A stretch of DNA of 43,580 bases from Cyanobium sp. PLM2.Bin73. Lineage in GTDB: Bacteria; Cyanobacteriota; Cyanobacteriia; PCC-6307; Cyanobiaceae. This document shows positions 7,779 to 18,767 of this stretch, in pieces. Position numbers and translations under genes: made by a program. The DNA is taken from positions 1 through 43,580 of the forward strand of contig REEV01000102.1 in assembly GCA_007694915.1 (NCBI GenBank). Direction: 5' to 3'. The notes under the pieces are model-generated. The model searched no databases. It had not been told where the DNA came from and saw only the letters and a program-made list of their open reading frames with translations. Numbering within the stretch: position 1 is the stretch's first letter; each line of letters opens with the position of its first letter.

Positions 7779-9563
7779 CTAGAGGATGGCGCCGAATGCT
7801 TCAGGACTGTGGCTGCGGGCCACGCGGTGCACCTCGCCGCGCTGCAGATCGAGGGTGACGATCTCTCCCTGCTCCAGATCCGCGAGGGCGTTCACCACCC
7901 CCACGATCGCCGGGATGCCTGCGCTCTGGGCCATAAGGGCGGCGTGGCTGTTGCTGCCACCCACCTCGGTGATCACTGCCTTGGCCTTGCGGATCGCCTC
8001 CACGTAGGCGGAGGTGGTTTCGCGCACCACCAGGATCTCGCCGGTCTGAATGGCGACGGCGGCCTCGGGGTTCTGCACCAGCCGCACCCGGCCGCTCACC
8101 GAGCCGCTGCCGATCGGTTCCCCGCGGGAGAGCACCGCCGACACCAGCCCCACCTTGATGAAATCGGTGGCACCGCTCACACCGGTGAGGGTGCCGGCGG
8201 TCTGCACCACCAGGTCGCCGTCCTCCAGGAAACCCAGCTCACGAGCCAGCCCCATGGCAATGCTGAAGGTGCCGGTGGAGGAGTTCTGGTCTTTCACCAG
8301 CAGCGGGCTCACCCCCCAGCTCAGCTGCAGCTGGCGGGCCACGCGCTCCTCGCCGGTGATCGCCAGGATCGGCGTGCTGGGCCGGAACTTGCTCACGTTG
8401 CGGGCCGTGGCGCCGCTTTCGGTGAGGGTGAGGATCGCCGCCGCGTTGAGGTTGCGGGCAATGGTGCTCACCGCCTGGCAGATGGCGTTGGGGATCGTGC
8501 TGGCCATGCGGCTGTCGATCACCCGCTGGGGGTAGTCGCGCTCGATGCGGCAGGCGATCGTGGCCATCGTGGCCACCGCCTCCACCGGGAAGTCGCCCAC
8601 CGCGCTCTCATTGGAGAGCATCACCGCGTCGGTGCCGTCGAGGATGGCGTTGGCCACATCGCTCACCTCGGCGCGGGTGGGGCGGGGGCAGCTCACCATC
8701 GAATCGAGCATCTGGGTGGCGGTGATCACCGGGATGCCGAGGCTGTTGGCCTTGCGGATCAGTTCCTTCTGCAGCAGCGGCACCTCCTCTGCCGGCATCT
8801 CCACCCCCAGGTCGCCGCGCGCCACCATCACCCCGTCGCAGAGCAGCAGGATGTCGTCGATCTGGTCGATGGCCTCGAACTTCTCGATCTTGGCCACCAC
8901 CGGGGTGCGGTAGCCGTGCTTGGCGATCAGCTCCTTGATCTCCCGCAGGTCGGAGGGGTTGCGCACGAAGCTCAGCGCCACCCAGTCGACCTTCTGCTCG
9001 AGGCCGAAGGCCAGGTCGATGCGGTCCTTTTCGGTGAGGGCCCGGATCGAGAGCTGCACGTCGGGGAAGTTCACCCCCTTGTTGTTGGACAGCACCCCGC
9101 CCACCGTCACCCGGCACTGCAGGGTCTGGCTGGCCTGGTCCATCCCCTCCACCACCATCTCCACGCGGCCGTCATCCAGCAGGATGCGGCTGCCCTCGGG
9201 CACCTCCTCGGCCAGACCCTCGTAGGTAACTGTGGCAATGGTGTGGTCGCAGCTCACCGTGCGCGAGGTGAGCTGGAAGCTGTCGCCGTTGTGCAGGGTG
9301 ATCGGGCCGTCGGCGAAGCGTCCGAGGCGGATCTTGGGCCCCTGCAGGTCCTGGAGGATGCCCACGTGCACCCCCAGCTCGGTGGAGACCTGGCGGATGG
9401 TGGCGATGCGGGCCGCGTGCTCGCTGTGGTCGCCGTGGGAGAAGTTGAGCCGGAAGGTGCTGGCACCGGCCGCGATCAGCTCCCGCAGCCGTTCGGGGGA
9501 TTCGGTGGCGGGCCCGATGGTGGCCACGATCTTGGTGCGACGCATGAGATCGCGGTGATGCAT
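7779..9563 (-). CDS. pyk: Pyruvate kinase with C-terminal PEP-utiliser domain
   Basis: Converts phosphoenolpyruvate and ADP to pyruvate and ATP at the end of glycolysis. The 594 residues start with the canonical RRTKIVATIGPAT. The substrate and metal region VMVARGDLGVEMP and the DAVMLSNESAVGDFPVEAV block are present; the usual MLSGETA reads MLSNESA here. After the alpha/beta domain (about 360-470) comes an extra PEP-utiliser-type mobile domain (about 490-580; ITEVGGSNSHAALMAQSAGIPAIVG), the long form found in many cyanobacteria and bacilli. The normally phosphorylated His of that domain sits in SNSHAAL. Start: ATG 9563 is used; an ATG six codons later (MRRTK) is equally good. It is divergent from the MazG-like gene. 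Confidence 0.96.
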   Translation of the reverse strand: MHHRDLMRRTKIVATIGPATESPERLRELIAAGASTFRLNFSHGDHSEHAARIATIRQVSTELGVHVGILQDLQGPKIRLGRFADGPITLHNGDSFQLTSRTVSCDHTIATVTYEGLAEEVPEGSRILLDDGRVEMVVEGMDQASQTLQCRVTVGGVLSNNKGVNFPDVQLSIRALTEKDRIDLAFGLEQKVDWVALSFVRNPSDLREIKELIAKHGYRTPVVAKIEKFEAIDQIDDILLLCDGVMVARGDLGVEMPAEEVPLLQKELIRKANSLGIPVITATQMLDSMVSCPRPTRAEVSDVANAILDGTDAVMLSNESAVGDFPVEAVATMATIACRIERDYPQRVIDSRMASTIPNAICQAVSTIARNLNAAAILTLTESGATARNVSKFRPSTPILAITGEERVARQLQLSWGVSPLLVKDQNSSTGTFSIAMGLARELGFLEDGDLVVQTAGTLTGVSGATDFIKVGLVSAVLSRGEPIGSGSVSGRVRLVQNPEAAVAIQTGEILVVRETTSAYVEAIRKAKAVITEVGGSNSHAALMAQSAGIPAIVGVVNALADLEQGEIVTLDLQRGEVHRVARSHSPEAFGAIL

Positions 9564-9619
9564 CGGTGCTCCACGAGCCCGGTGAAACTACCATCGGCCC
9601 CCCGTTTTGACGCCCCTGC

Positions 9620-9949
9620 GTGGATCTGCACACCTACCAGCGCCAGTCGCGGCACACCGCCCGCTACCCCGGTGCCGGCAGCAACCCCATCTACCCCACC
9701 CTGGGGCTCTGCGGCGAAGCCGGCGAGGTGGCCGACAAGGTCAAGAAGGTGATCCGCGACCGCGGCGGCGCCTTCACCCCCGAGGTGATCCGCTCCCTGG
9801 AGCTGGAGCTGGGGGACGTGCTCTGGTACGTGGCCCAGCTGGCCACCGAGCTGGGTCTCGAGCTCGAGCAGGTGGCCCAGGCCAACCTCGACAAGCTGGC
9901 CAGCCGGGCTGCCCGTAACGTGATCTCCGGAGAGGGAGACCTGCGGTGA
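9620..9949 (+). CDS. MazG-like nucleotide pyrophosphohydrolase
   Basis: A 109-residue all-alpha NTP pyrophosphatase of the MazG / phosphoribosyl-ATP pyrophosphatase superfamily, likely to hydrolyse (d)NTPs to monophosphates as house-cleaning. The metal-binding motifs are visible as E33xxE36 in GEAGEVADK and E63xxD66 in LELGDVLWY. This is a single-domain form, not full-length MazG. The start is GTG 9620, 56 bp from the divergent pyruvate kinase start. The stop overlaps the next GTG start (GTGA at 9946-9949). The substrate cannot be told from sequence. Confidence 0.88.
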   Translation: MDLHTYQRQSRHTARYPGAGSNPIYPTLGLCGEAGEVADKVKKVIRDRGGAFTPEVIRSLELELGDVLWYVAQLATELGLELEQVAQANLDKLASRAARNVISGEGDLR

Positions 9950-10440
9950 GGCGTCTGCTGCCACTCAGGCTGCTGCCACTCAGGCTGGTGCTGCCGCTGC
10001 TGCTGCTGCTTGCGCTGTTGCTGGCCCCCGCGCCGGCCTGGGCTGCGGATCTGGCCGTGTCGGAGGTGACGCTGGAGCCCTGCCCGGCCGAGGACGTCGC
10101 CTCCCAGCCCGAACTGGCCAGGCCCACCGGCGCCCGCTGCTACGCCCTGCGCGGGCTGGTGGAAAACGCCGGGCGGCGGCCGGTGTTCGACACCGACGTG
10201 TACGCCCGCATCCTCGATGCCAGCGGTGAGCCGGTGCTGCAGAACCGGACCCGGGTGGGCTCGATCGGCGATGTGCCCCCAGGCCGCTCGACCTTCGGCC
10301 TGCGGCTGGCGGTGCCCGCCGGCACCCCCGGCCCCCTCAGCTTCCGCAGCGTGCGCGCCCGGGGCTTCTCAGCGCCGGTGCGCACCCGGGCCGGGGAGGG
10401 CGATGAGCTGCTGCCCCTCGAGCAGGCCCTTGCCGACTGA
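9946..10440 (+). CDS. Secreted protein with FxLYD-like fold, function unknown
   Basis: A 164-residue exported protein. Residues 1-32 form a clear signal peptide: basic start, long leucine core, and a PAPAWA-A cleavage site near 33. The mature part (YALRGLVENAGRRPVFDTDVYARILDASGEPVLQNRT...VPPGRSTFGLRLAV) has the spacing of FxLYD-type beta-sandwich domains, which describe a polypeptide change on modification of a parent compound and occur in secreted proteins without known enzyme activity. It has two cysteines in the mature N-terminal region (in EPCPAED and ARCYAL) that could form a disulphide. It is translationally coupled to the MazG-like gene, but no shared role is evident. Confidence 0.72.
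   Translation: MRRLLPLRLLPLRLVLPLLLLLALLLAPAPAWAADLAVSEVTLEPCPAEDVASQPELARPTGARCYALRGLVENAGRRPVFDTDVYARILDASGEPVLQNRTRVGSIGDVPPGRSTFGLRLAVPAGTPGPLSFRSVRARGFSAPVRTRAGEGDELLPLEQALAD
9955..9984 (+). repeat. Two tandem 15-bp units in a signal peptide
   Basis: CTGCTGCCACTCAGG occurs twice without a gap, encoding Leu-Leu-Pro-Leu-Arg twice in the n/h-region of the secreted 164-residue protein. The copies are identical, so the duplication looks recent. Confidence 0.93.
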
Positions 10441-10471
10441 CCGGACCGGCAGCGGCATTCAGACCGTGTGT

Positions 10472-10759
10472 TCAGAAGCCGCCCGCAAGCACGCTCATGC
10501 TCAGGCTGCCGAGGATTTGCTGGCCGAAGCTCAGAGCCAGGAAGGCCAGGAGCGCGGAGAGATCCAGACCGCCGATCGGAGGGATCAGCCCGCGGAAGAT
10601 GCCCAGGTAGGGATCGGTGATCGAGCTCACCGTGCTCAGCACCGGATTGCTCCAGTCGAGGTTGGGAAACCAGCTCAGCAGCACCCGCACCAGCAGGATC
10701 AGGGAATAGATCTGCAGGGTGTTGGCAACCACCAGCAGCAGCTGGGCGAGAACTTCCAT
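10472..10759 (-). CDS. YggT / Ycf19 family membrane protein
   Basis: A 95-residue integral membrane protein with two hydrophobic segments (about 5-30 and 62-90) around the family core LLVRVLLSWFPNLDW...ITDPYLGIFRGLIPPIGGLDLSALLAFL. Ycf19/YlmG homologues in plastids and cyanobacteria are linked to thylakoid organisation and cytochrome b6f maturation (CCB3 is a plant relative); bacterial YggT proteins are otherwise poorly understood. It follows scpB on the same strand with a 40-bp gap, so the two may share a transcript. The 31-bp space towards the convergent secreted-protein gene holds no visible terminator. Confidence 0.9.
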   Translation of the reverse strand: MEVLAQLLLVVANTLQIYSLILLVRVLLSWFPNLDWSNPVLSTVSSITDPYLGIFRGLIPPIGGLDLSALLAFLALSFGQQILGSLSMSVLAGGF

Positions 10760-10799
10760 GGCGTGGCGGGTCGGGACCGGAGGTGGATCAGCCTGAACT

Positions 10800-11360
10800 C
10801 TATGCAGCCTGCGATGGCTGCGACTGCGCCTCCTCGGTTCGGATGGCGAAGGTGCGGTGGAACTTCTCGCTCAGGCTCAGCCAGTAGGAGCGGCCTTCAC
10901 TCTGACGCCGGCGCTCGATGAAGTTCTGGGCCAGCAGCTCCTTGATGTGCTCGTAGGCCCCGGAGCCACGCAGCTCCACCAGCTCCGACTGCAGGATGCG
11001 CTTGCGCAGGGCGATGGTGGCGAGGGTGCGCAGGGTGGCGGTGGAGAGGTCCACCGGCAGCAGGTTCTGCACCAGCCCGGCCAGGCCGTCGCGCAGCTGC
11101 AGGCTGTAGCGACGGCCCTCCTGGCGCACCTCCAGGGCGGTGTCGCGGTGGGCGTAGTCGGCCATCAGCGTGATCAGCCCCAGCTCCGCGGCGTCGCGAT
11201 CCACCCCGGCCAGCTCCGCCAGTTCCCCCAGGCTCAGGGGCCGGCCCTTGAGGTAGAGGATCGCCTCCAGCCGGGCCGGCAGCGACAGGCCGTCCGCCGC
11301 GCCGCCGGAGGGGCCGCTGCTGATCGGGTCGCCGGGGGAATTGCTCAAGGACCTGTGCAT
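10800..11360 (-). CDS. scpB: Segregation and condensation protein ScpB
   Basis: ScpB binds ScpA and SMC to form the bacterial condensin that organises the nucleoid. The 186 residues show two winged-helix domains: LPARLEAILYLKGRPLSLGELAELAGVDR and, after the linker, TLRTLATIALRKRILQSELVELRGSGAYEHIKELLAQNFIERR. The first 25 residues are Gly/Ser-rich and probably disordered. The stop is a TAG at 10802-10800. The gene lies 67 bp downstream of ilvA on the same strand and upstream of the YggT-like gene; scpA and smc are not in the window. Confidence 0.93.
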   Translation of the reverse strand: MHRSLSNSPGDPISSGPSGGAADGLSLPARLEAILYLKGRPLSLGELAELAGVDRDAAELGLITLMADYAHRDTALEVRQEGRRYSLQLRDGLAGLVQNLLPVDLSTATLRTLATIALRKRILQSELVELRGSGAYEHIKELLAQNFIERRRQSEGRSYWLSLSEKFHRTFAIRTEEAQSQPSQAA

Positions 11361-11427
11361 CGGGGCGAGCCGGAGCTCAGCGTCAGATAAGCAGTCCGCC
11401 GCCCGCCCTTCAACCCGGGCGCGGCCT

Positions 11428-13005
11428 TCAACCGAGGAACAGCCGGTAGGCGGGATTGGCGCTCTCCTCCCAGTGCCGGTAGCCCAGGCCCCCCAGGAAT
11501 GCCTGCCAATGCTGGCGTTCCGCCGCCGGCACCTGCACCCCCACCACGATCCGGCCCACGTCGGCGCCGTGGTTGCGGTAGTGGAAGATGCTGATGTTCC
11601 AACTCGACTGCAGGGCGTTCACAAAGGCCATCAGGGCCCCGGGCTTCTCCGGGAACTCGAAGCGGTAGAGCAGTTCCTCCCCCTGCTGGAGCGCCGGGCC
11701 GGCGCTTGCCGGCAGCCGCCCGCCAACCATGTGGCGCAGGTGCAGCTTGGCCAGTTCGTTGGCGGTCAGGTCGAGGCAGGGGAAGCCGGCGCTCTCCAGG
11801 CTGGCGAGGAGGGTCTCGGTATCATGGCGGTCGCGGATCTGCACCCCCACGAAGATGTGGGCCTGCTGCGGATCGGCGAGGCGGTAGCTGAATTCGGTGA
11901 GGCTGCGCTCCCCCAGCAGTGCGCAGAAGCGGCGCAGGCTGCCTGGCCGCTCCGGAATCTCCACCGCCAGCATGGCCTCGCGTGCCTCCCCCAGCTCGGC
12001 CCGCTCGGCCACGAAGCGCAGCCGGTCGAAGTTCATGTTGGCGCCGCAGGCCACCGCCACCAGGCAGCGATCCCGCAGGCCCCGGCTGGCCACATCGGCC
12101 TTCATGCCGGCCACCGCCAGGGCGCCGGCGGGCTCGAGGATCGAGCGGGTGTCCTCGAACACGTCCTTGATGGCGGCGCAGATCTCATCGGTGGTCACGG
12201 TCACCATGCGGTCCACGTGGCGCTGGGCCAGGGCGAAGGTGTGCACCCCCACCTGGTGCACGGCCACCCCATCGGCGAACAGGCCCACCTGCTCCAGCCG
12301 CACCCGCTCGCCGCAGGCCAGGGAGCGGGCCATGGCGTCGGCATCGGCCGGCTCCACGCCGATGATCTCCACCTGGGGCCAGAGGGCCTTCACGTAGGCG
12401 GCGATGCCGGCGATCAGGCCGCCGCCGCCCACCGCCACGTAGATGGCGTCGGGGGGAGTGGAGCACTGGCGCAGGATCTCCAGGGCGATGGTGCCCTGGC
12501 CGGCGATCACCTCCGGATCGTCGAAGGGATGGATGAAGGTGAGCCCGCGTTCACGGCCCAGGCGGGTGGCCTCGGTGCAGGCGGCGTCGTAGGTGTCGCC
12601 GTGCAGCACCACCTCCGCCCCCCGGGCCGCCACCGCCTTCACCTTCATCTCGGGTGTGGTCACGGGCATCACGATCACCGCCCGGCAGCCCAGCCGCTGG
12701 GCCCCCAGGGCCACACCCTGGGCGTGGTTGCCGGCGCTGGCGGCGATCACCCCCCGCTCCAGCTCCGCCGGGCTGAGGCCGGCCATCTTGTTGTAGGCGC
12801 CACGCAGCTTGAAGCTGAACACCGGCTGCAGGTCTTCCCGTTTGAGCAGCACCCGGTTGTGCAGTCGGGCCGAGAGGATGGGCGCCGGATCGAGGGGCGA
12901 CTCGATCGCCACGTCGTAGACCCGGGCCCGCAGGATCCGCTGCAGGTAGCCGTCGCTGGCGTGGCCGTCGCTGGCGTGGCAGTTGCTGGCGGAAGGTTCA
13001 CCCAT
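11428..13005 (-). CDS. ilvA: Biosynthetic threonine ammonia-lyase IlvA
   Basis: PLP enzyme that converts threonine to 2-oxobutanoate, the first committed step of isoleucine synthesis. From ATG 13005 it has 525 residues: a catalytic domain (about 1-330) with the PLP lysine in SFKLRGA (about residue 66) and the phosphate-binding VGGGGLIAG loop, then two ACT-like regulatory domains ([15 protein letters not shown] and [15 protein letters not shown]) that bind isoleucine and valine in this class. So it is the long, feedback-regulated form and not the catabolic one. The N-terminal [10 protein letters not shown] is produced by a 15-bp tandem repeat. It is divergent from dxs, with 73 bp between starts. 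Confidence 0.96.
12946..12990 (-). repeat. Three tandem 15-bp units in the ilvA 5' end
   Basis: Plus-strand units are GTAGCCGTCGCTGGC, GTGGCCGTCGCTGGC and GTGGCAGTTGCTGGC at 12946, 12961 and 12976. They lie in frame at codons about 6-20 of ilvA and encode repeats of Ala-Ser-Asp-Gly/Asn-His type. The segment precedes the conserved enzyme core, so length change should be tolerated (inference). Confidence 0.92.
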
Positions 13006-13078: not shown

Positions 13079-15001
13079 ATGCATCTCAGCGAGCTGAGCC
13101 ACCCCAACCAACTGCACGGCCTCAGCGTCACCGAACTCGAAGCGATCGCCCGCCAGATCCGCGAGCGCCACCTGGAGGTGGTGAGCAACAGCGGCGGCCA
13201 CCTGGGGCCTGGCCTGGGGGTGGTGGAACTCACCCTCGCCCTCTACCAGACCCTCGACCTCGACCACGACAAGGTGGTGTGGGACGTGGGCCACCAGGCC
13301 TACCCCCACAAGCTGATCACCGGCCGTTACCACAGCTTCAACACCCTCCGCCAGCAGGGCGGGGTGGCCGGCTACCTCAAGCGCCGCGAGAGCCGCTTCG
13401 ACCACTTTGGCGCCGGCCACGCCAGCACCTCCATCTCCGCCGCCCTGGGCATGGCCCTGGCCCGCGACCGCCGCGGTGAAGACTTCAAATGTGTGGCGGT
13501 GATCGGCGATGGCGCCCTCACCGGGGGCATGGCCCTGGAGGCCATCAACCATGCCGGCCACCTGCCCCACACCCGCCTGCTGGTGGTGCTGAACGACAAC
13601 GACATGTCGATCAGTCCGCCGGTGGGGGCCCTCTCCACCCACCTCAACCGCATGCGGCACAGCCCGCCGCTGCAGTTCCTGCAGGACAACGCCGAGGAGG
13701 CGATCAAGCATCTGCCGTTCATGCACGGTGAGCTGCCGCCGGAGCTCAAGAACCTCAAGGAGAGCCTCAAGAGGCTGTCTGTGCCCAAGCTCGGGGCCGT
13801 GTTCGAGGAGCTGGGCTTCACCTACATGGGCCCGGTGGACGGCCACGACATCGCCGGCATGGTGAAGGTGTTCGAGCAGGCCCACGCCCACGACGGTCCG
13901 GTGCTGGTGCACGTGGCCACCACCAAGGGCAAGGGCTACCCCTACGCCGAAGCCGACCAGGTGGGCTACCACGCTCAGGGCGCCTTCGATCTCACCACCG
14001 GCAAGGCCCATCCCTCCAGCAAGCCCAAGCCTCCCAGCTACAGCAAGGTGTTCGGCCAGACGCTGGTGAAGCTCTGCGACCAGGACCCCGCCGTGGTGGG
14101 CATCACCGCGGCCATGGCCACCGGCACCGGCCTCGACCTGCTGGAGAAGGCCCTGCCCGATCAGTACTTCGATGTGGGCATCGCCGAGCAGCACGCCGTG
14201 ACCATGGCCGCTGGCATGGCCTGTGAGGGCCTCAAGCCGGTGGTGGCGATCTACAGCACCTTCCTGCAGCGCGCCTACGACCAGCTCATCCACGATGTGG
14301 GCATCCAGAAGCTGCCGGTGACGTTTGTGCTCGACAGGGCCGGCATCGTCGGTGCCGATGGCCCCACCCACCAGGGCCAGTACGACATCAGCTACCTGCG
14401 CGCCGTGCCCAACTTCACGGTGATGGCGCCCAAGGACGAGGCCGAACTGCAGCGCATGCTGGTGACGGCCGTCCAACACGACGGCCCCTGTGCCCTGCGC
14501 ATCCCCCGTGGCGAGGGCGAGGGCGTGCCCCTGGCCGAGGAGGGCTTCGAGCCGGTGCAGATCGGCCGCGGCGAGCTGCTCACCGATGGCGATGACCTGC
14601 TGATCGTGGCCTATGGGGCCATGGTGCATCCGGCCCTGGCCACCGCCGGCCTGCTGCAGGAGCAGGGCGTGCGGGCCGCGGTGATCAACGCCCGCTTCCT
14701 GCGCCCCCTCGATGAGACCCTGATCCTGCCGATGGCCCGCCGCATCGGCCGGGTGGTGACCATGGAGGAAGGAGCCCTGCCCGGCGGCTTCGGCGCCGCC
14801 GTGGTGGAGAGCCTCAGCGACCACGGCGTGGCCGTGCCGGTGCTTCGGATCGGCATCCCCGACCAGCTGGTGGACCACGCCAGCCCCGCCCAGAGCAAGC
14901 AGGCCCTCGGCCTCACCCCACCCCAGATGGCCAACCGCATCAGCGCCCACTTCGCCGAGGCCCTGCGCTCACCGGCGCCCGCCGCGGCCGTGGGGGTCTG
15001 A
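13079..15001 (+). CDS. dxs: 1-deoxy-D-xylulose-5-phosphate synthase
   Basis: Thiamine-diphosphate enzyme joining pyruvate and glyceraldehyde-3-phosphate, the entry and main control point of the MEP isoprenoid pathway that feeds chlorophyll phytol, carotenoids and quinones. From ATG 13079 it has 640 residues. The ThDP motif [18 protein letters not shown] starts near residue 143; the catalytic Glu is residue 370 in [13 protein letters not shown]; the transketolase pyrimidine domain ([13 protein letters not shown]) and C-terminal domain follow. The start was chosen because conservation begins with [15 protein letters not shown] and AAGGG lies just upstream; the open frame extends to 12983 but into ilvA. 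TAGATT at 13051-13056 is a plausible -10. Confidence 0.97.
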
Positions 15002-15024
15002 ACGCCCTGAGCTCCTGAACACGG

Positions 15025-15054
15025 AAAAACCGCCGGATGCTTCCATCCGGCGGT
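15025..15054 (-). terminator. Intrinsic terminator for the leftward psaK transcript
   Basis: An 11-bp perfect stem ACCGCCGGATG / CATCCGGCGGT with loop CTTC. The T-tract (TTTTT) follows the hairpin only when read on the minus strand, so it mainly ends psaK transcription, about 100 bp past the psaK stop. Read rightward after dxs the hairpin is followed by CCTGC, so it may stabilise or weakly end the dxs message. Confidence 0.88.
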
Positions 15055-15118
15055 CCTGCGGGCTTGGTTTCTGAGAGCGGCTTGTGCGAGCAGCGGCCCG
15101 ATAAGCCGTGCTCCAGGT

Positions 15119-15136
15119 CCGGGCCGCTTGGCCCGG
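15119..15136. other. GC-rich perfect hairpin in the psaK 3' untranslated region
   Basis: CCGGGCC, loop GCTT, GGCCCGG: a 7-bp perfect stem with no T-tract on either side. It lies between the psaK stop and the terminator at 15025-15054, so it would be in the psaK 3' UTR as a second stem-loop, possibly protecting the message (inference). Nothing else is seen between 15055 and 15139. Confidence 0.5.
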
Positions 15137-15139
15137 GGC

Positions 15140-15169
15140 GTCAGACCACGCCGCGTCAGACCACGCCGC
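15140..15169 (-). repeat. 15-bp duplication across the psaK stop codon
   Basis: GTCAGACCACGCCGC occurs twice without a gap at 15140 and 15155. On the coding strand each copy reads Arg-Gly-Val-Val-stop in the same frame, so the last four codons and the TGA of psaK are duplicated exactly. Readthrough of the first stop would add five residues ending in the same RGVV. Confidence 0.93.
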
Positions 15170-15425
15170 GGGAGGCCAGGCCGAGGATGGCGCCCATGCC
15201 GAGGATGTGGCCCAGGCTCAGGGTGCCGAGCATGGCGCCGTGGCTGAGGCCACCGAACAGGGGGGAACTGGGCAGCTGCAGGCCCACGTTGGGCTGCTTG
15301 ATCGTGGCCTTGCCGATGGCGATGGCGATCACGTTGCACACGATCATCACCAGGGCCACCTTCGGCGACCAGGTGAGGGTGGCGGGGGCCATGGCCAGGG
15401 GTTGAACCAGGAGGGGGGCGAGCAT
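15156..15425 (-). CDS. psaK: Photosystem I reaction center subunit PsaK
   Basis: Small peripheral photosystem I subunit that binds chlorophyll at the edge of the complex and is a docking side for antenna. The 89 residues contain two membrane helices (about 18-40 and 60-85) and family-typical stretches WSPKVALVMIVCNVIAIAIGKATI and FGGLSHGAMLGTLSLGHILGMGAILGL. I start at ATG 15425, which gives normal length; the frame is open further upstream but would run through the neighbouring gene. It is the last gene of a leftward DUF2499-DUF3593-psaK group, 67 bp after DUF3593. A perfect palindrome GGGTCGCGACCC (15470-15481) lies in that 67-bp gap and may be an operator. Confidence 0.95.
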   Translation of the reverse strand: MLAPLLVQPLAMAPATLTWSPKVALVMIVCNVIAIAIGKATIKQPNVGLQLPSSPLFGGLSHGAMLGTLSLGHILGMGAILGLASRGVV

Positions 15426-15469
15426 GAAGCACAAGCCGGGGCCCCATCTTCCCGGCAGGGCCGACCCCT

Positions 15470-15481
15470 GGGTCGCGACCC
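15470..15481. promoter_or_regulatory. Perfect 12-bp palindrome upstream of psaK
   Basis: GGGTCGCGACCC is self-complementary over 12 bp and lies about 45-56 bp upstream of the psaK start, in the short space after DUF3593. Position suits an operator or the foot of a leader structure, but no known regulator site (for instance the HLR1 direct repeats of RpaB) matches it. Confidence 0.35.
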
Positions 15482-15492
15482 GTAAGAGTTGT

Positions 15493-15828
15493 TCACCGCC
15501 GGCGCTGCTCGAGCAGGGCGCGGCTGAACCCGATGGCCACCAGCAGGTTGGCCAGGGTGAGAAAGGCCTCCGCCCCGCCGTGCAGCACATCCACATCGGC
15601 GAGCTGGCGGCCCGTGGTCTGCAGGGCCAGGATCGAGGCGCCGATGGTGACGGCCACGAACAGCAGGGTGAGCTGGAAGCCACGCCGGGCGAGCACCGGA
15701 AAGCCCTCGATCCGCCCCGCCAGCCACAGAAAGGCCAGGTAGGGCAGTAGGGAGAGCACGAAGAAGGGACCCGGGTCGATGCCCCCTAGCCAGCTCAGCA
15801 GCCCCAGGCCGAAGCCGCCATCAGCCAC
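15493..15828 (-). CDS. DUF3593 membrane protein
   Basis: A 111-residue protein with three probable membrane segments (about 20-37, 50-70 and 85-103). The sequence GIDPGPFFVLSLLPYLAFLWLAGRI and the later GRQLADVDVLHGGAEAFLTLANLLVAIGFSRAL fit DUF3593, a family of cyanobacteria and plastid-bearing eukaryotes with no settled function. Its start overlaps the end of the DUF2499 gene by 8 bp, and psaK follows 67 bp downstream, so it sits in the middle of a likely photosynthesis-related operon. Family assignment is from recall of the pattern and not from a search. Confidence 0.78.
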   Translation of the reverse strand: MADGGFGLGLLSWLGGIDPGPFFVLSLLPYLAFLWLAGRIEGFPVLARRGFQLTLLFVAVTIGASILALQTTGRQLADVDVLHGGAEAFLTLANLLVAIGFSRALLEQRRR

Positions 15829-16138
15829 CGCGCACCTCGGCGGCGGCCCGCTGGCGGCGCAGGATCTGCCAGGCGGCCAGGGCCAGGGCGCCGTTGCCGG
15901 CAGTGGTGAGGCCCGCCTGCAGCACCACCAGGCCCCGCAGTTCGGCGGCGTTGTCGAACAGGTGCCAGGTGCAGGCGCACATGGCGCTCACCAGGGCCGG
16001 CAGCATCGCCAGGGCCAGCCAGCGCCAGGCCCCTTCCCCACGCACACCCGCCAGGCGTTGAACGGCGGCCATCGCCACCAGCCACTCCAGCACCGAGGTG
16101 ATGTGGATCCACCAGGTGGGCAGCGACAGGGCGTGCAT
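15821..16138 (-). CDS. DUF2499 (possibly Ycf49-like) membrane protein
   Basis: A 105-residue integral membrane protein starting MHALSLPTWWIHITSVLEWLVAMAAV, with three hydrophobic segments (about 10-28, 38-58 and 66-92) and the characteristic MCACTWHLFDN stretch. This matches DUF2499, found in cyanobacteria, algae and plants; I believe it corresponds to Ycf49-like proteins, less certainly. ATG 16138 was chosen because the family begins there; the longer open frame upstream has no conservation and crosses the divergent ABC gene. It overlaps DUF3593 by 8 bp, so the pair is coupled. The start is 42 bp from the divergent exporter ATPase. Confidence 0.78.
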   Translation of the reverse strand: MHALSLPTWWIHITSVLEWLVAMAAVQRLAGVRGEGAWRWLALAMLPALVSAMCACTWHLFDNAAELRGLVVLQAGLTTAGNGALALAAWQILRRQRAAAEVRGG

Positions 16139-16180
16139 GGGGCGAATCCGGGGAGTCAACTCTATGGATAGGGTGCGGCG

Positions 16181-17167
16181 ATGGCGATCGTGATGGCCCG
16201 GGGTCTGCGCAAGACCTTCCGCGTGGCCGACAAGCAGCCCGGCCTGATGGGCACGCTCCGCCACCTGGTGCGCCGCCGCTGGCGCTCCGTGGAGGCCGTG
16301 CGCGACGTGAGCTTCAGCATCGAGCCCGGGGAGGTGGTGGGGTTCCTCGGACCCAACGGCGCCGGCAAGACCACCACCCTCAAGCTGCTCAGCGGCCTGA
16401 TCCATCCCAGCGCCGGCGAGGTGATGGTGGCGGGCCACCGTCCCTTCCGGCGCCGGCGCCCGTTCCTGGAGTCCATCACCCTGGTGATGGGGCAGAAGCA
16501 GCAGCTGATCTGGGATCTGCCGCCGCTTGATTCCCTGCGCGTCAACGCCGCCGTGTACGGCATCGACGACCTGGAGGCCCGCCGGCGGGTGGCGGAGCTG
16601 GCCGAGATGCTTGAGCTGGGCGAGGAGCTCACCCGGCCGGTGCGCAAGCTGTCGCTGGGCCAGCGGATGAAGGCGGAACTGCTGGCGGCGCTGCTGCACC
16701 GTCCCCGGGTGCTGTTCCTCGATGAGCCCACATTGGGGCTGGACGTGAACGCCCAGGCGCGGGTGCGCCAGTTCCTGGCCGACTACAACCGCCGCACCGG
16801 CGCCACGGTGCTGCTCACCAGCCACTACATGGCCGACATCACCGCCCTCTGCCCGCGGGTGCTGCTGATCCACCAGGGTGCCCTGTTCCACGACGGTGGG
16901 CTGGCCGAGCTGAGTGAGCGGCTGGCCCCCTGGCGCCAGGTGCGCCTGGAGCTGGGGGCCGTGTTGCCGGCCGAGCAGCTGGCGGCCTACGGGGAGATCG
17001 AGAGCCTGGAGGGCCGTGAGGTGCGGTTGCTGATTCCCCGCGAGCGCCTCACCGCCACGGTGAGCCGCCTGCTGACGCAGCTGCCGGTGCTCGACCTGGA
17101 GGTGAGCGATCCGCCGATCGAGGAGCTGATCGGCCGCCTGTTCCGCCAGGGGACAGTGGAGCCATGA
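16181..17167 (+). CDS. ABC-2 type exporter, ATP-binding protein
   Basis: Cytoplasmic ATPase of an ABC exporter, 328 residues. Walker A is GPNGAGKTT (about residues 59-67), the Q-loop follows in VMGQKQQLIWDLP, the signature is LSLGQRMKAELLAAL, Walker B is RVLFLDEPTLGLD, and the H-loop is LLTSHY. The QLIWDLPP stretch and the adjacent pair of six-helix permeases place it in the subgroup often labelled daunorubicin/multidrug type; the substrate is unknown. The C-terminal 90 residues form a regulatory extension. Its stop overlaps the next start (ATGA, 17164-17167). Confidence 0.93.
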   Translation: MAIVMARGLRKTFRVADKQPGLMGTLRHLVRRRWRSVEAVRDVSFSIEPGEVVGFLGPNGAGKTTTLKLLSGLIHPSAGEVMVAGHRPFRRRRPFLESITLVMGQKQQLIWDLPPLDSLRVNAAVYGIDDLEARRRVAELAEMLELGEELTRPVRKLSLGQRMKAELLAALLHRPRVLFLDEPTLGLDVNAQARVRQFLADYNRRTGATVLLTSHYMADITALCPRVLLIHQGALFHDGGLAELSERLAPWRQVRLELGAVLPAEQLAAYGEIESLEGREVRLLIPRERLTATVSRLLTQLPVLDLEVSDPPIEELIGRLFRQGTVEP

Positions 17168-17970
17168 GATGGCGGCTGGCCCGCACCCTGTGGCTGGTGC
17201 AGTTCGCCTACATGGCCGAATACCGGGCCGAGATCGCGCTCTGGGCCCTCTCGGGGGTGCTGCCGTTCATCATGCTCGGCCTCTGGAGCGCTGCCGGCAA
17301 CGGCACCGGCCTGGAGCTGGGGCTCAGCCCGGCGGAGCTGGGCCGCTACTTCCTGTGCGTGTTCGTGGTGCGCCAGTTCAGCGTCGTGTGGGTGGTGTGG
17401 CAGTTCGAGGAGGACGCCCTGCAGGGCCGCCTGTCGCCCTACCTGCTGCAGCCGCTGCACCCGCTCTGGCGCTACGTGGCCGCCCACCAGGCCGAGCAGG
17501 CCACGCGCCTGCCCTTCGTGCTGCTGATCGCCTCGCTGTTCTTTGCGCTCCAGCCCCAGGCCTTCGCCTGGCCGGGGCCGGCCGGGGTGCTGCTGGGGGT
17601 GCTGGCGGTGGGCCTGGCCTTCGCGATCAACTTCCTGCTCCAGAGCCTGATCGCCACCCTCTGCTTCTGGAGCGAGCGGGCCAGCGCCCTGGAGCGGCTG
17701 CTGTATGTGCCCACCGTGTTCCTCTCCGGCCTGGTGGCGCCCCTGCAGGCCTTTCCGCCGGAGCTGCGCCGCCTTGCCCTGCACACCCCCTTCCCCTACC
17801 TGATCGGCTTCCCCGCCCAGGTGCTGGCCGGCAACCCCATGGGAGAGGGCCAGACCTTTGATCTGGCGGCCGGCTTCGCCGCCATGGCCCTGTGGATCGC
17901 CCTGCTGCTGCCGCTGCTGGCGCTGCTCTGGGGGGCCGGGGTGCGGCGCTACTCGGCGATGGGCGCCTGA
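17164..17970 (+). CDS. ABC-2 type exporter, membrane subunit 1
   Basis: A 268-residue membrane protein with about six hydrophobic helices. It begins MRWRLARTLWLVQFAYMAEYRAEIALWALSG and carries the conserved region FEEDALQGRLSPYLLQPLHPLWRYV, typical of ABC-2 permeases that come in unlike pairs (ABC2_membrane_6-like). It overlaps the ATPase gene by 4 bp and the second permease by 1 bp (TGATG), so three proteins are made from one message and probably form one transporter. Confidence 0.9.
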   Translation: MRWRLARTLWLVQFAYMAEYRAEIALWALSGVLPFIMLGLWSAAGNGTGLELGLSPAELGRYFLCVFVVRQFSVVWVVWQFEEDALQGRLSPYLLQPLHPLWRYVAAHQAEQATRLPFVLLIASLFFALQPQAFAWPGPAGVLLGVLAVGLAFAINFLLQSLIATLCFWSERASALERLLYVPTVFLSGLVAPLQAFPPELRRLALHTPFPYLIGFPAQVLAGNPMGEGQTFDLAAGFAAMALWIALLLPLLALLWGAGVRRYSAMGA

Positions 17971-18767
17971 TGGAGCTGCCCATGCGCTATCTGATCAGCC
18001 TGCGGCGCTTCTGGGGCACGGCTCTGGCCACCCAGCTGGAATACCAGCTCAACGCCCTGATCGAGCTGCTGGCGATGGCGGGCAACCTGGCCGGCAGCCT
18101 GCTGGTGCTCTGGCTGTTCTACCGCCAGGGGGTGGCGCTGGGCGGCTGGAGCTGGAACGCTGTGCTGGTGGTGCTGGGCGCCTACACCTGCCTCGACGGG
18201 CTCACCAGCACCCTGCTGCGGCCCAACCTCAGCCGCATCGTCAACCACGTGCAGGAGGGCACGCTGGATTTCGTGCTGCTCAAGCCGATCGACAGCCAGT
18301 TCTGGCTGTCGCTCCGCACCCTCAGCCCCGCCGGTCTGCCGGAGCTGGTGGTGGGGGTGGCGCTGATGCTCTGGGCCGGGCGGCGGGAACTGGGCACCTT
18401 GCCCCCCAGTGCCGTTGGCCTGGCGGCGCTGCTGCTGCTGGCGGCCGCAGTCACCCTCTACGCCCTCTGGTTTGTGCTGGCGGCCACCTCGATCTGGTTC
18501 GTGAAGACCTGGAACGCCACCGAGGTGCTGCGGGCGGCCCTCACCGCCGGCCGCTACCCGGTGAGTGCCTATCCCTCCGGACTGCGCACCCTGTTCACCC
18601 TGGTGCTGCCGGTGGCCTTCCTCACCACGGTGCCGGCCGAGGCGCTGCTGGGCCGGCTCAGCCTGGCCGGTGCCGTCACCAGCCTGCTGGTGGCCGGGGT
18701 GGCCCTGGCCATCAGCCGGGCCTTCTGGGGGTTCGCCCTGCGCTTCTACACCTCCGCCTCCAGCTGA
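17970..18767 (+). CDS. ABC-2 type exporter, membrane subunit 2
   Basis: A 265-residue membrane protein with about six helices, the second half of the permease pair. Diagnostic blocks are YLISLRRFWGTALATQLEYQLN, GAYTCLDGLTSTLLRPNLSRIVNHVQEGTLDFVLLKPIDSQFWLS, and the loop TWNATEVLRAALTAGRYPVSAYP. I start at ATG 17970, which overlaps the previous stop; ATG 17982 (MRYLIS) is an alternative. With subunit 1 and the ATPase it makes a complete exporter; no accessory outer-membrane or fusion protein is nearby. Confidence 0.9.
   Translation: MELPMRYLISLRRFWGTALATQLEYQLNALIELLAMAGNLAGSLLVLWLFYRQGVALGGWSWNAVLVVLGAYTCLDGLTSTLLRPNLSRIVNHVQEGTLDFVLLKPIDSQFWLSLRTLSPAGLPELVVGVALMLWAGRRELGTLPPSAVGLAALLLLAAAVTLYALWFVLAATSIWFVKTWNATEVLRAALTAGRYPVSAYPSGLRTLFTLVLPVAFLTTVPAEALLGRLSLAGAVTSLLVAGVALAISRAFWGFALRFYTSASS

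Follow-up and report, generated by a model that had tools for sequence, protein, structure and literature searches.

In the cyanobacterial genomes compared, the DUF2499 (Ycf49) and DUF3593 genes are coupled to each other and share the fate of photosystem I (PSI), being kept in reduced symbiont genomes that retain PSI and broken or missing in those that have lost it. We hypothesise that the two proteins are halves of one six-helix membrane module that helps in PSI biogenesis, most likely by delivering chlorophyll to PsaA/PsaB, a reading to which we assign a probability of roughly 0.4. The two proteins, encoded together, would act together as a membrane module of predicted six-helix fold. This module would be a helper rather than a permanent subunit, and would most likely assist chlorophyll in reaching, or settling into, the PsaA/PsaB core while PSI is being assembled. 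How this chlorophyll-laden complex is put together is little understood, and ycf49 is among the conserved frames of plastids; the pair provides candidate helpers in building PSI.

The window (the whole stretch of DNA analysed, 43,580 nucleotides from Cyanobium sp. PLM2.Bin73) carries the two genes in a leftward cluster with psaK, all on the minus strand. The DUF2499 gene (15821..16138) encodes 105 residues with three helices predicted from hydropathy, and matches PF10693 with E 1.1e-35 (122.2 bits against a curated cut-off of 22.1). The DUF3593 gene (15493..15828) has a GTG start and encodes 111 residues, again with three predicted helices, matching PF12159 with E 1.2e-30 (105.7 bits, cut-off 25). 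The two genes overlap by 8 bp (15821..15828), compared to 4 bp in many relatives. After a gap of 67 bp comes psaK (15156..15425), whose 89-residue product is PsaK1-like: it matches PF01241 (E 6.7e-14) and the equivalog TIGR03049 (E 7.2e-34, 116 bits, cut-off 67.95), and its best match in the PDB is 6nwa_k, PsaK 1. About 100 bp downstream of psaK is an intrinsic terminator on the same strand (15025..15053), consisting of a 10-bp stem (15030-15053) followed by TTTTT (15025-15029). It folds with -25 kcal/mol (z -4.85), and none of 200 shuffled sequences did as well or better. The cluster, its 8 bp overlap and its dedicated terminator had all been called in the original prediction, and profile matches, coordinates and folding bear them out. 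A simple scan of 14900-16300 did not list the terminator, perhaps because part of the T run can pair as an extension of the stem, and the same scan found no sigma-70-like promoter; the spacer between DUF3593 and psaK folds no better than shuffled sequence (z 0.68). The cluster is flanked by dxs, convergent with psaK, and on the other side by a divergent ABC-2 exporter. The latter (16181-18767) consists of a single ATPase gene plus two permease genes of PF06182, and occupies the position at which many relatives carry a csaB-like gene. Gene names such as csaB, devC, truB and GluQ are our own attributions; in profile searches the csaB-like gene corresponds to PF04230 and the GluQ-like gene to PF00749.

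The core unit of the cluster is the pair of DUF genes. Of 145 genomes sampled from the class, 142 have DUF2499 and 141 have DUF3593. Across the phylum the counts cover DUF2499, which is found in all 21 genomes sampled from the class and in none of 38 from other classes. The two genes are adjacent on the same strand, DUF2499 first, in 99 of the 140 class genomes that have both; in two they are 1.7 and 8.5 kb apart, and in the remaining 39 they lie further apart or on separate contigs, which counts against coupling. Both occur in 76 of 80 named loci, mostly from Nostocales. In one family, 12 of the 42 genomes searched have a natural fusion that joins both in one open frame, and wherever a class genome has two DUF3593 places (six genomes), it carries two adjacent pairs. 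Another genome with a duplication, G066, has two DUF2499 places only (G066:C9:853122-855902), 2.5 kb apart and with equal scores, and its one DUF3593 gene is elsewhere. The pair is thus often inherited, fused and duplicated together, and it is on this adjacency, fusion and paired duplication that we base its status as a unit. A few genomes have DUF2499 without a DUF3593 match. They include G084, a single contig of 2,696,255 bp with PsaK and PSII genes, which we take to be Synechococcus elongatus PCC 6301; the control genome Synechococcus elongatus; and three drafts from the family of the symbionts discussed below (G517, G525, G534). The DUF3593 half is therefore dispensable in G084 and in the control, which counts against our reading. 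A search of viral contigs with the DUF3593 protein of the window found no carriage by viruses, and DUF2499, DUF3593 and PsaK had no match in PHROGs. At3g61870 is presumably a DUF3593 protein, an assignment that a literature search did not confirm. The ycf4 gene is a PSI assembly gene. That both families occur in plastid-bearing lineages, as had been stated in the original prediction, is supported by the available parts of the papers cited here, which document them in plants and in a number of algae. The available part of PMC3478156 lists a protein from a diatom that carries both domains, and ycf49 adjoins ycf4 in cyanidiophyte and eustigmatophyte plastid genomes, as far as the accessible part of PMC4603697 goes.

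Evidence on function comes from a natural test provided by two symbiont lineages, whose reduced genomes belong to one family together with their congeners G476, G545 and G546, in which the pair and the photosystem genes are all kept. Two of the reduced genomes, G513 and G514 (1.5 and 1.4 Mb), each have two full-length PsaA/PsaB genes. Neither has a full-length CP47/CP43 gene: there is one IsiA/Pcb-sized frame in G514, and a broken fragment in G513. In both, DUF2499 and DUF3593 are stop-free and adjacent. The other four (G482, G509, G547 and G548) are single contigs of 2.5-3.1 Mb. Here PsaA/PsaB are absent (G482, G548) or stop-ridden (G509, G547), and the PSII antenna genes are broken or absent in all four. 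The DUF3593 gene is riddled with stops in G482 and G509; G547 has a truncated copy containing a stop, and G548 has no match. For DUF2499 there is no match in either G482 or G548, and the copies in G547 and G509 are broken. We take G514 (1,443,806 bp) to be UCYN-A and G482 (2,794,318 bp) the endosymbiont of Epithemia turgida; more generally, G513 and G514 look like UCYN-A, and the other four like endosymbionts of Epithemia and Rhopalodia. The genome sizes reported for these groups in the accessible part of PMC12903740 are 1.4 Mb and 2.5-3.1 Mb, respectively. Part of another paper describes UCYN-A as having kept PSI and lost PSII, RuBisCO and the TCA cycle (PMC6315102), and the endosymbiont of an Epithemia diatom has thylakoids and respiration but no photosystems, according to the available text of PMC11070190.

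The pair is thus intact where PSI is the only photosystem, and decayed where there is none, and so its fate goes with PSI and not with PSII, carbon fixation, respiration or thylakoids per se. A function in PSII, antenna or carbon fixation is disfavoured because the pair is intact in G513 and G514, which have no full-length CP47/CP43. A general thylakoid or respiratory function is disfavoured because the Epithemia endosymbiont keeps both without photosystems (PMC11070190, as far as available). The role in PSI assembly suggested in the original prediction is therefore supported by retention in two PSI-only genomes and by decay in four genomes without intact photosystem genes, these six representing two lineages. 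This is the pattern expected of a PSI biogenesis factor, present with PSI and lost with it, as seen in few lineages and with G084 lacking DUF3593. Because the UCYN-A-like genomes keep other functions as well, the same pattern would also fit chlorophyll synthesis or another process that depends on PSI.

The structure of the module was predicted with AlphaFold2 using the natural fusion (218 residues, 118-row alignment), giving a confident model (pLDDT 91.8, pTM 0.86). In this prediction the three DUF2499 helices are followed by a short linker helix and then the three DUF3593 helices, forming what is predicted to be a single six-helix bundle. Foldseek with this model returned nothing at E <= 0.001. 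The best VIA match was mGlu3 (Z 11.0, rmsd 4.2, 198 aligned), which, in comparisons with 7-helix receptor or rhodopsin-like bundles, is in the tool's range for a common helical arrangement. We also considered whether the two proteins are halves of one duplication, for which a profile comparison gave no support (probability 1.5). A sequence search of the PDB, which holds many PSI structures, found no chain matching DUF2499 or DUF3593 at E <= 1, compared to 32 distinct chains for PsaK. Neither protein is therefore a known permanent PSI subunit, as would be expected of a biogenesis factor. Among the residues invariant in 23 or 24 aligned sequences are H12, E18, H59, D62, N63, Q74 and N82 of DUF2499 and D80, H83 and E87 of DUF3593, which could line a polar or cofactor site.

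A further handle on function, independent of the first, is provided by a second, paralogous pair. The bchE gene encodes the oxygen-independent (anaerobic) chlorophyll cyclase, and in three genomes (G185, G162 and G125) a second DUF2499-DUF3593 pair lies directly upstream of it. These loci are L333:7438-10188, L334:9355-12086 and L335:4811-7596, with bchE matching TIGR02026 above cut-off; no bchE was detected close to the pair at the other loci examined. Further second pairs are seen in L330, L331 and L332 (around 8600-11700), the last with a psbA copy nearby. The second pair is preceded by an ArsR-type regulator in G122, by an ArsR-type regulator and a nitronate-monooxygenase-like gene in G072, and by a nitronate-monooxygenase-like gene in G126, where a pentapeptide-repeat gene follows. 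There are psbA copies among its neighbours too, further downstream in G185 and about 2 kb away in G072, which counts against the PSI reading. The five second DUF2499 copies that were fully read all have VCTWH in place of the usual ACTWH, and so look like one type of paralogue. It is the location beside bchE that leads us to consider chlorophyll as the cargo. By analogy with ChlAII, HO2, HemN and D1', the second pair may represent an isoform for low oxygen; parts of a review (PMC4500134) describe micro-oxic isoforms both of D1 and of chlorophyll enzymes.

The position of psaK needs to be considered separately. The family of the window was searched in 121 genomes, of which 109 have DUF3593 and 110 PsaK; completeness does not exceed 81% in the 12 that lack DUF3593. 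Of the 109 family genomes with both, 108 have psaK downstream of DUF3593 on the same strand, within 300 bp in 102 genomes and at 1.2-1.7 kb in six, the sole exception being G226, in which the two are on different contigs. The linkage is therefore beyond chance. Two of the six wider gaps were opened, and each contains a long frame (L113:1291-2487 and L115:1065-2420), in L115 encoding a solute-binding-protein-like product (PF00497). When flanks of 1.5 kb were examined in the 30 family loci with the best scores, 29 contained psaK, 21 a FAD-oxidoreductase-like gene and 18 the csaB-like gene (counted with the csaB query only), making the trio more constant than the genes on either side of it. The gene order, whose conservation had been proposed as a check in the original prediction, is conserved at two levels: DUF3593-psaK throughout the family, and DUF2499-DUF3593 through much of the class. 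Outside the family, among the matches listed, DUF3593 and psaK are tightly linked only in G036, where DUF2499 is elsewhere. G036 has two PsaK matches and G084, from the same family, has one. The synteny of these genomes ends at a devC-like gene (L319:4771-6896 in G084); at this point G036 continues with psaK, DUF3593 and a GluQ-like gene, a cassette missing from the 400 kb of G084 covered, where another frame follows. In four genomes of family f42, psaK is 11-15 kb from DUF3593 among the matches listed, and these were counted as unlinked. At the 80 named loci, psaK is absent throughout from the stored flank (up to 5 kb, shorter in some). The psaK gene is thus a lineage-bound neighbour and would be a passenger rather than the sole client of the pair; in the lineage of the window it is probably on the same transcript.

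On this basis, a module dedicated to PsaK, serving its insertion or antenna docking at the PsaK side of PSI as originally suggested, is very unlikely. In its favour are the family-wide linkage, its recurrence in G036 of another family, and the single PsaK match in G084, which lacks DUF3593, compared to two in G036. However, 13 class genomes have no PsaK match, and 12 of these keep both DUF2499 and DUF3593, the exception being G141, which is 62% complete. All 12 have PsaA/PsaB (contig ends truncate DUF3593 in G160 and one PsaA/PsaB gene in each of G093 and G160). Two of them, G070 and G098, with chromosomes of 4,659,019 and 4,724,791 bp, we take to be Gloeobacter violaceus and Gloeobacter kilaueensis. 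Gloeobacter is not known to have thylakoids. If this identification is correct, the pair is older than PsaK and perhaps older than thylakoids. Gloeobacter PSI and the Gloeobacter genome both lack PsaK, as stated in the available part of PMC9000952. In addition, psaK is remote from the pair in the PSI-only G514 and missing from the stored flanks of the 80 named loci, and part of a review states that PSAK is able to enter PSI-LHCI spontaneously in vitro (PMC11449065). On the genomes without a PsaK match we reject a PsaK-specific function, and the proposed role in PsaK insertion is not supported. A different neighbour raises the possibility that the pair has a cell-envelope function together with the divergent pyruvyl-transferase gene (PF04230, csaB-like). 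This linkage is wider than that of psaK: among L001-L071, 40 of 56 distinct genomes have the csaB-like gene divergent from DUF2499, and 70 of the 80 named loci contain it, as do 18 of the 30 family loci. An example is the polysaccharide pyruvyl transferase at L053:1-1184. The csaB-like gene is however not beside the pair in the window, in G514 (where it is located elsewhere), in G476 or in two Gloeobacter-like genomes; moreover, the DUF families persist in plastids and the pair decays with the photosystems, and we consider an envelope function highly improbable.

A better competitor, though one we still regard as rather unlikely, is that the pair serves chlorophyll synthesis or transport for all chlorophyll proteins rather than PSI assembly, the pair beside bchE being its low-oxygen isoform. 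The location of the second pair in G185, G162 and G125 fits this, as does the existence of micro-oxic isoforms of chlorophyll enzymes and D1 (PMC4500134, in the part available), and PSI-only genomes need chlorophyll too. Against an early step in the pathway, three diatom endosymbionts without photosystems keep most of the path to chlorophyllide (accessible part of PMC12903740), whereas the pair is broken or absent in all four such genomes analysed here, which may include those three. The neighbours of the first copy also point to PSI, namely psaK and, in plastids, ycf4. Returning to PSI biogenesis as the preferred reading, a more speculative extension, which we would consider doubtful as a whole, is that Ycf49 and DUF3593 constitute an ancient two-part chlorophyll-handling module that loads PSI, older than PsaK and perhaps than thylakoids, with a standard form and a low-oxygen form beside bchE.

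The literature on these families and on PSI assembly, in which the Ycf49 literature was partly covered, assigns no function to DUF2499/Ycf49 or DUF3593, and a 2024 review of how PSI is assembled (PMC11449065) makes no mention of Ycf49 in the available portion of its main text. Both families had already been named; if our reading holds, the pair is a new PSI biogenesis factor. The natural test, in which the pair is kept with PSI, lost with PSI and indifferent to PSII and PsaK, turns a hint from gene neighbours into a specific claim.

Ycf4 and Ycf3 are plastid-encoded PSI assembly factors. The pair resembles them in consisting of auxiliary conserved frames, and ycf49 adjoins ycf4 in some plastid genomes (available part of PMC4603697), but the unit here is made up of two 3-helix proteins. 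There is also a parallel with Ycf54, a conserved ycf frame that acts with the chlorophyll cyclase ChlA, and the second pair likewise adjoins a cyclase gene, bchE; Ycf54 has been shown to bind ChlA (PMC4500134, in part), whereas the pair is linked to a cyclase by gene neighbourhood. Ycf51 (Sll1702), a cyanobacterial PSI assembly factor, was likewise a conserved, PSI-linked ycf frame of once unknown function (PMC11062422). It was singled out when 12 ycf genes, which may have included ycf49, were knocked out in Synechocystis (PMC11062422). Ycf51 binds Ycf3 and PsaC in experiments (PMC11062422), whereas the pair is a candidate identified from sequence; unlike Ycf51, the pair is also found in plants and several algae, as documented in the available parts of the papers cited.
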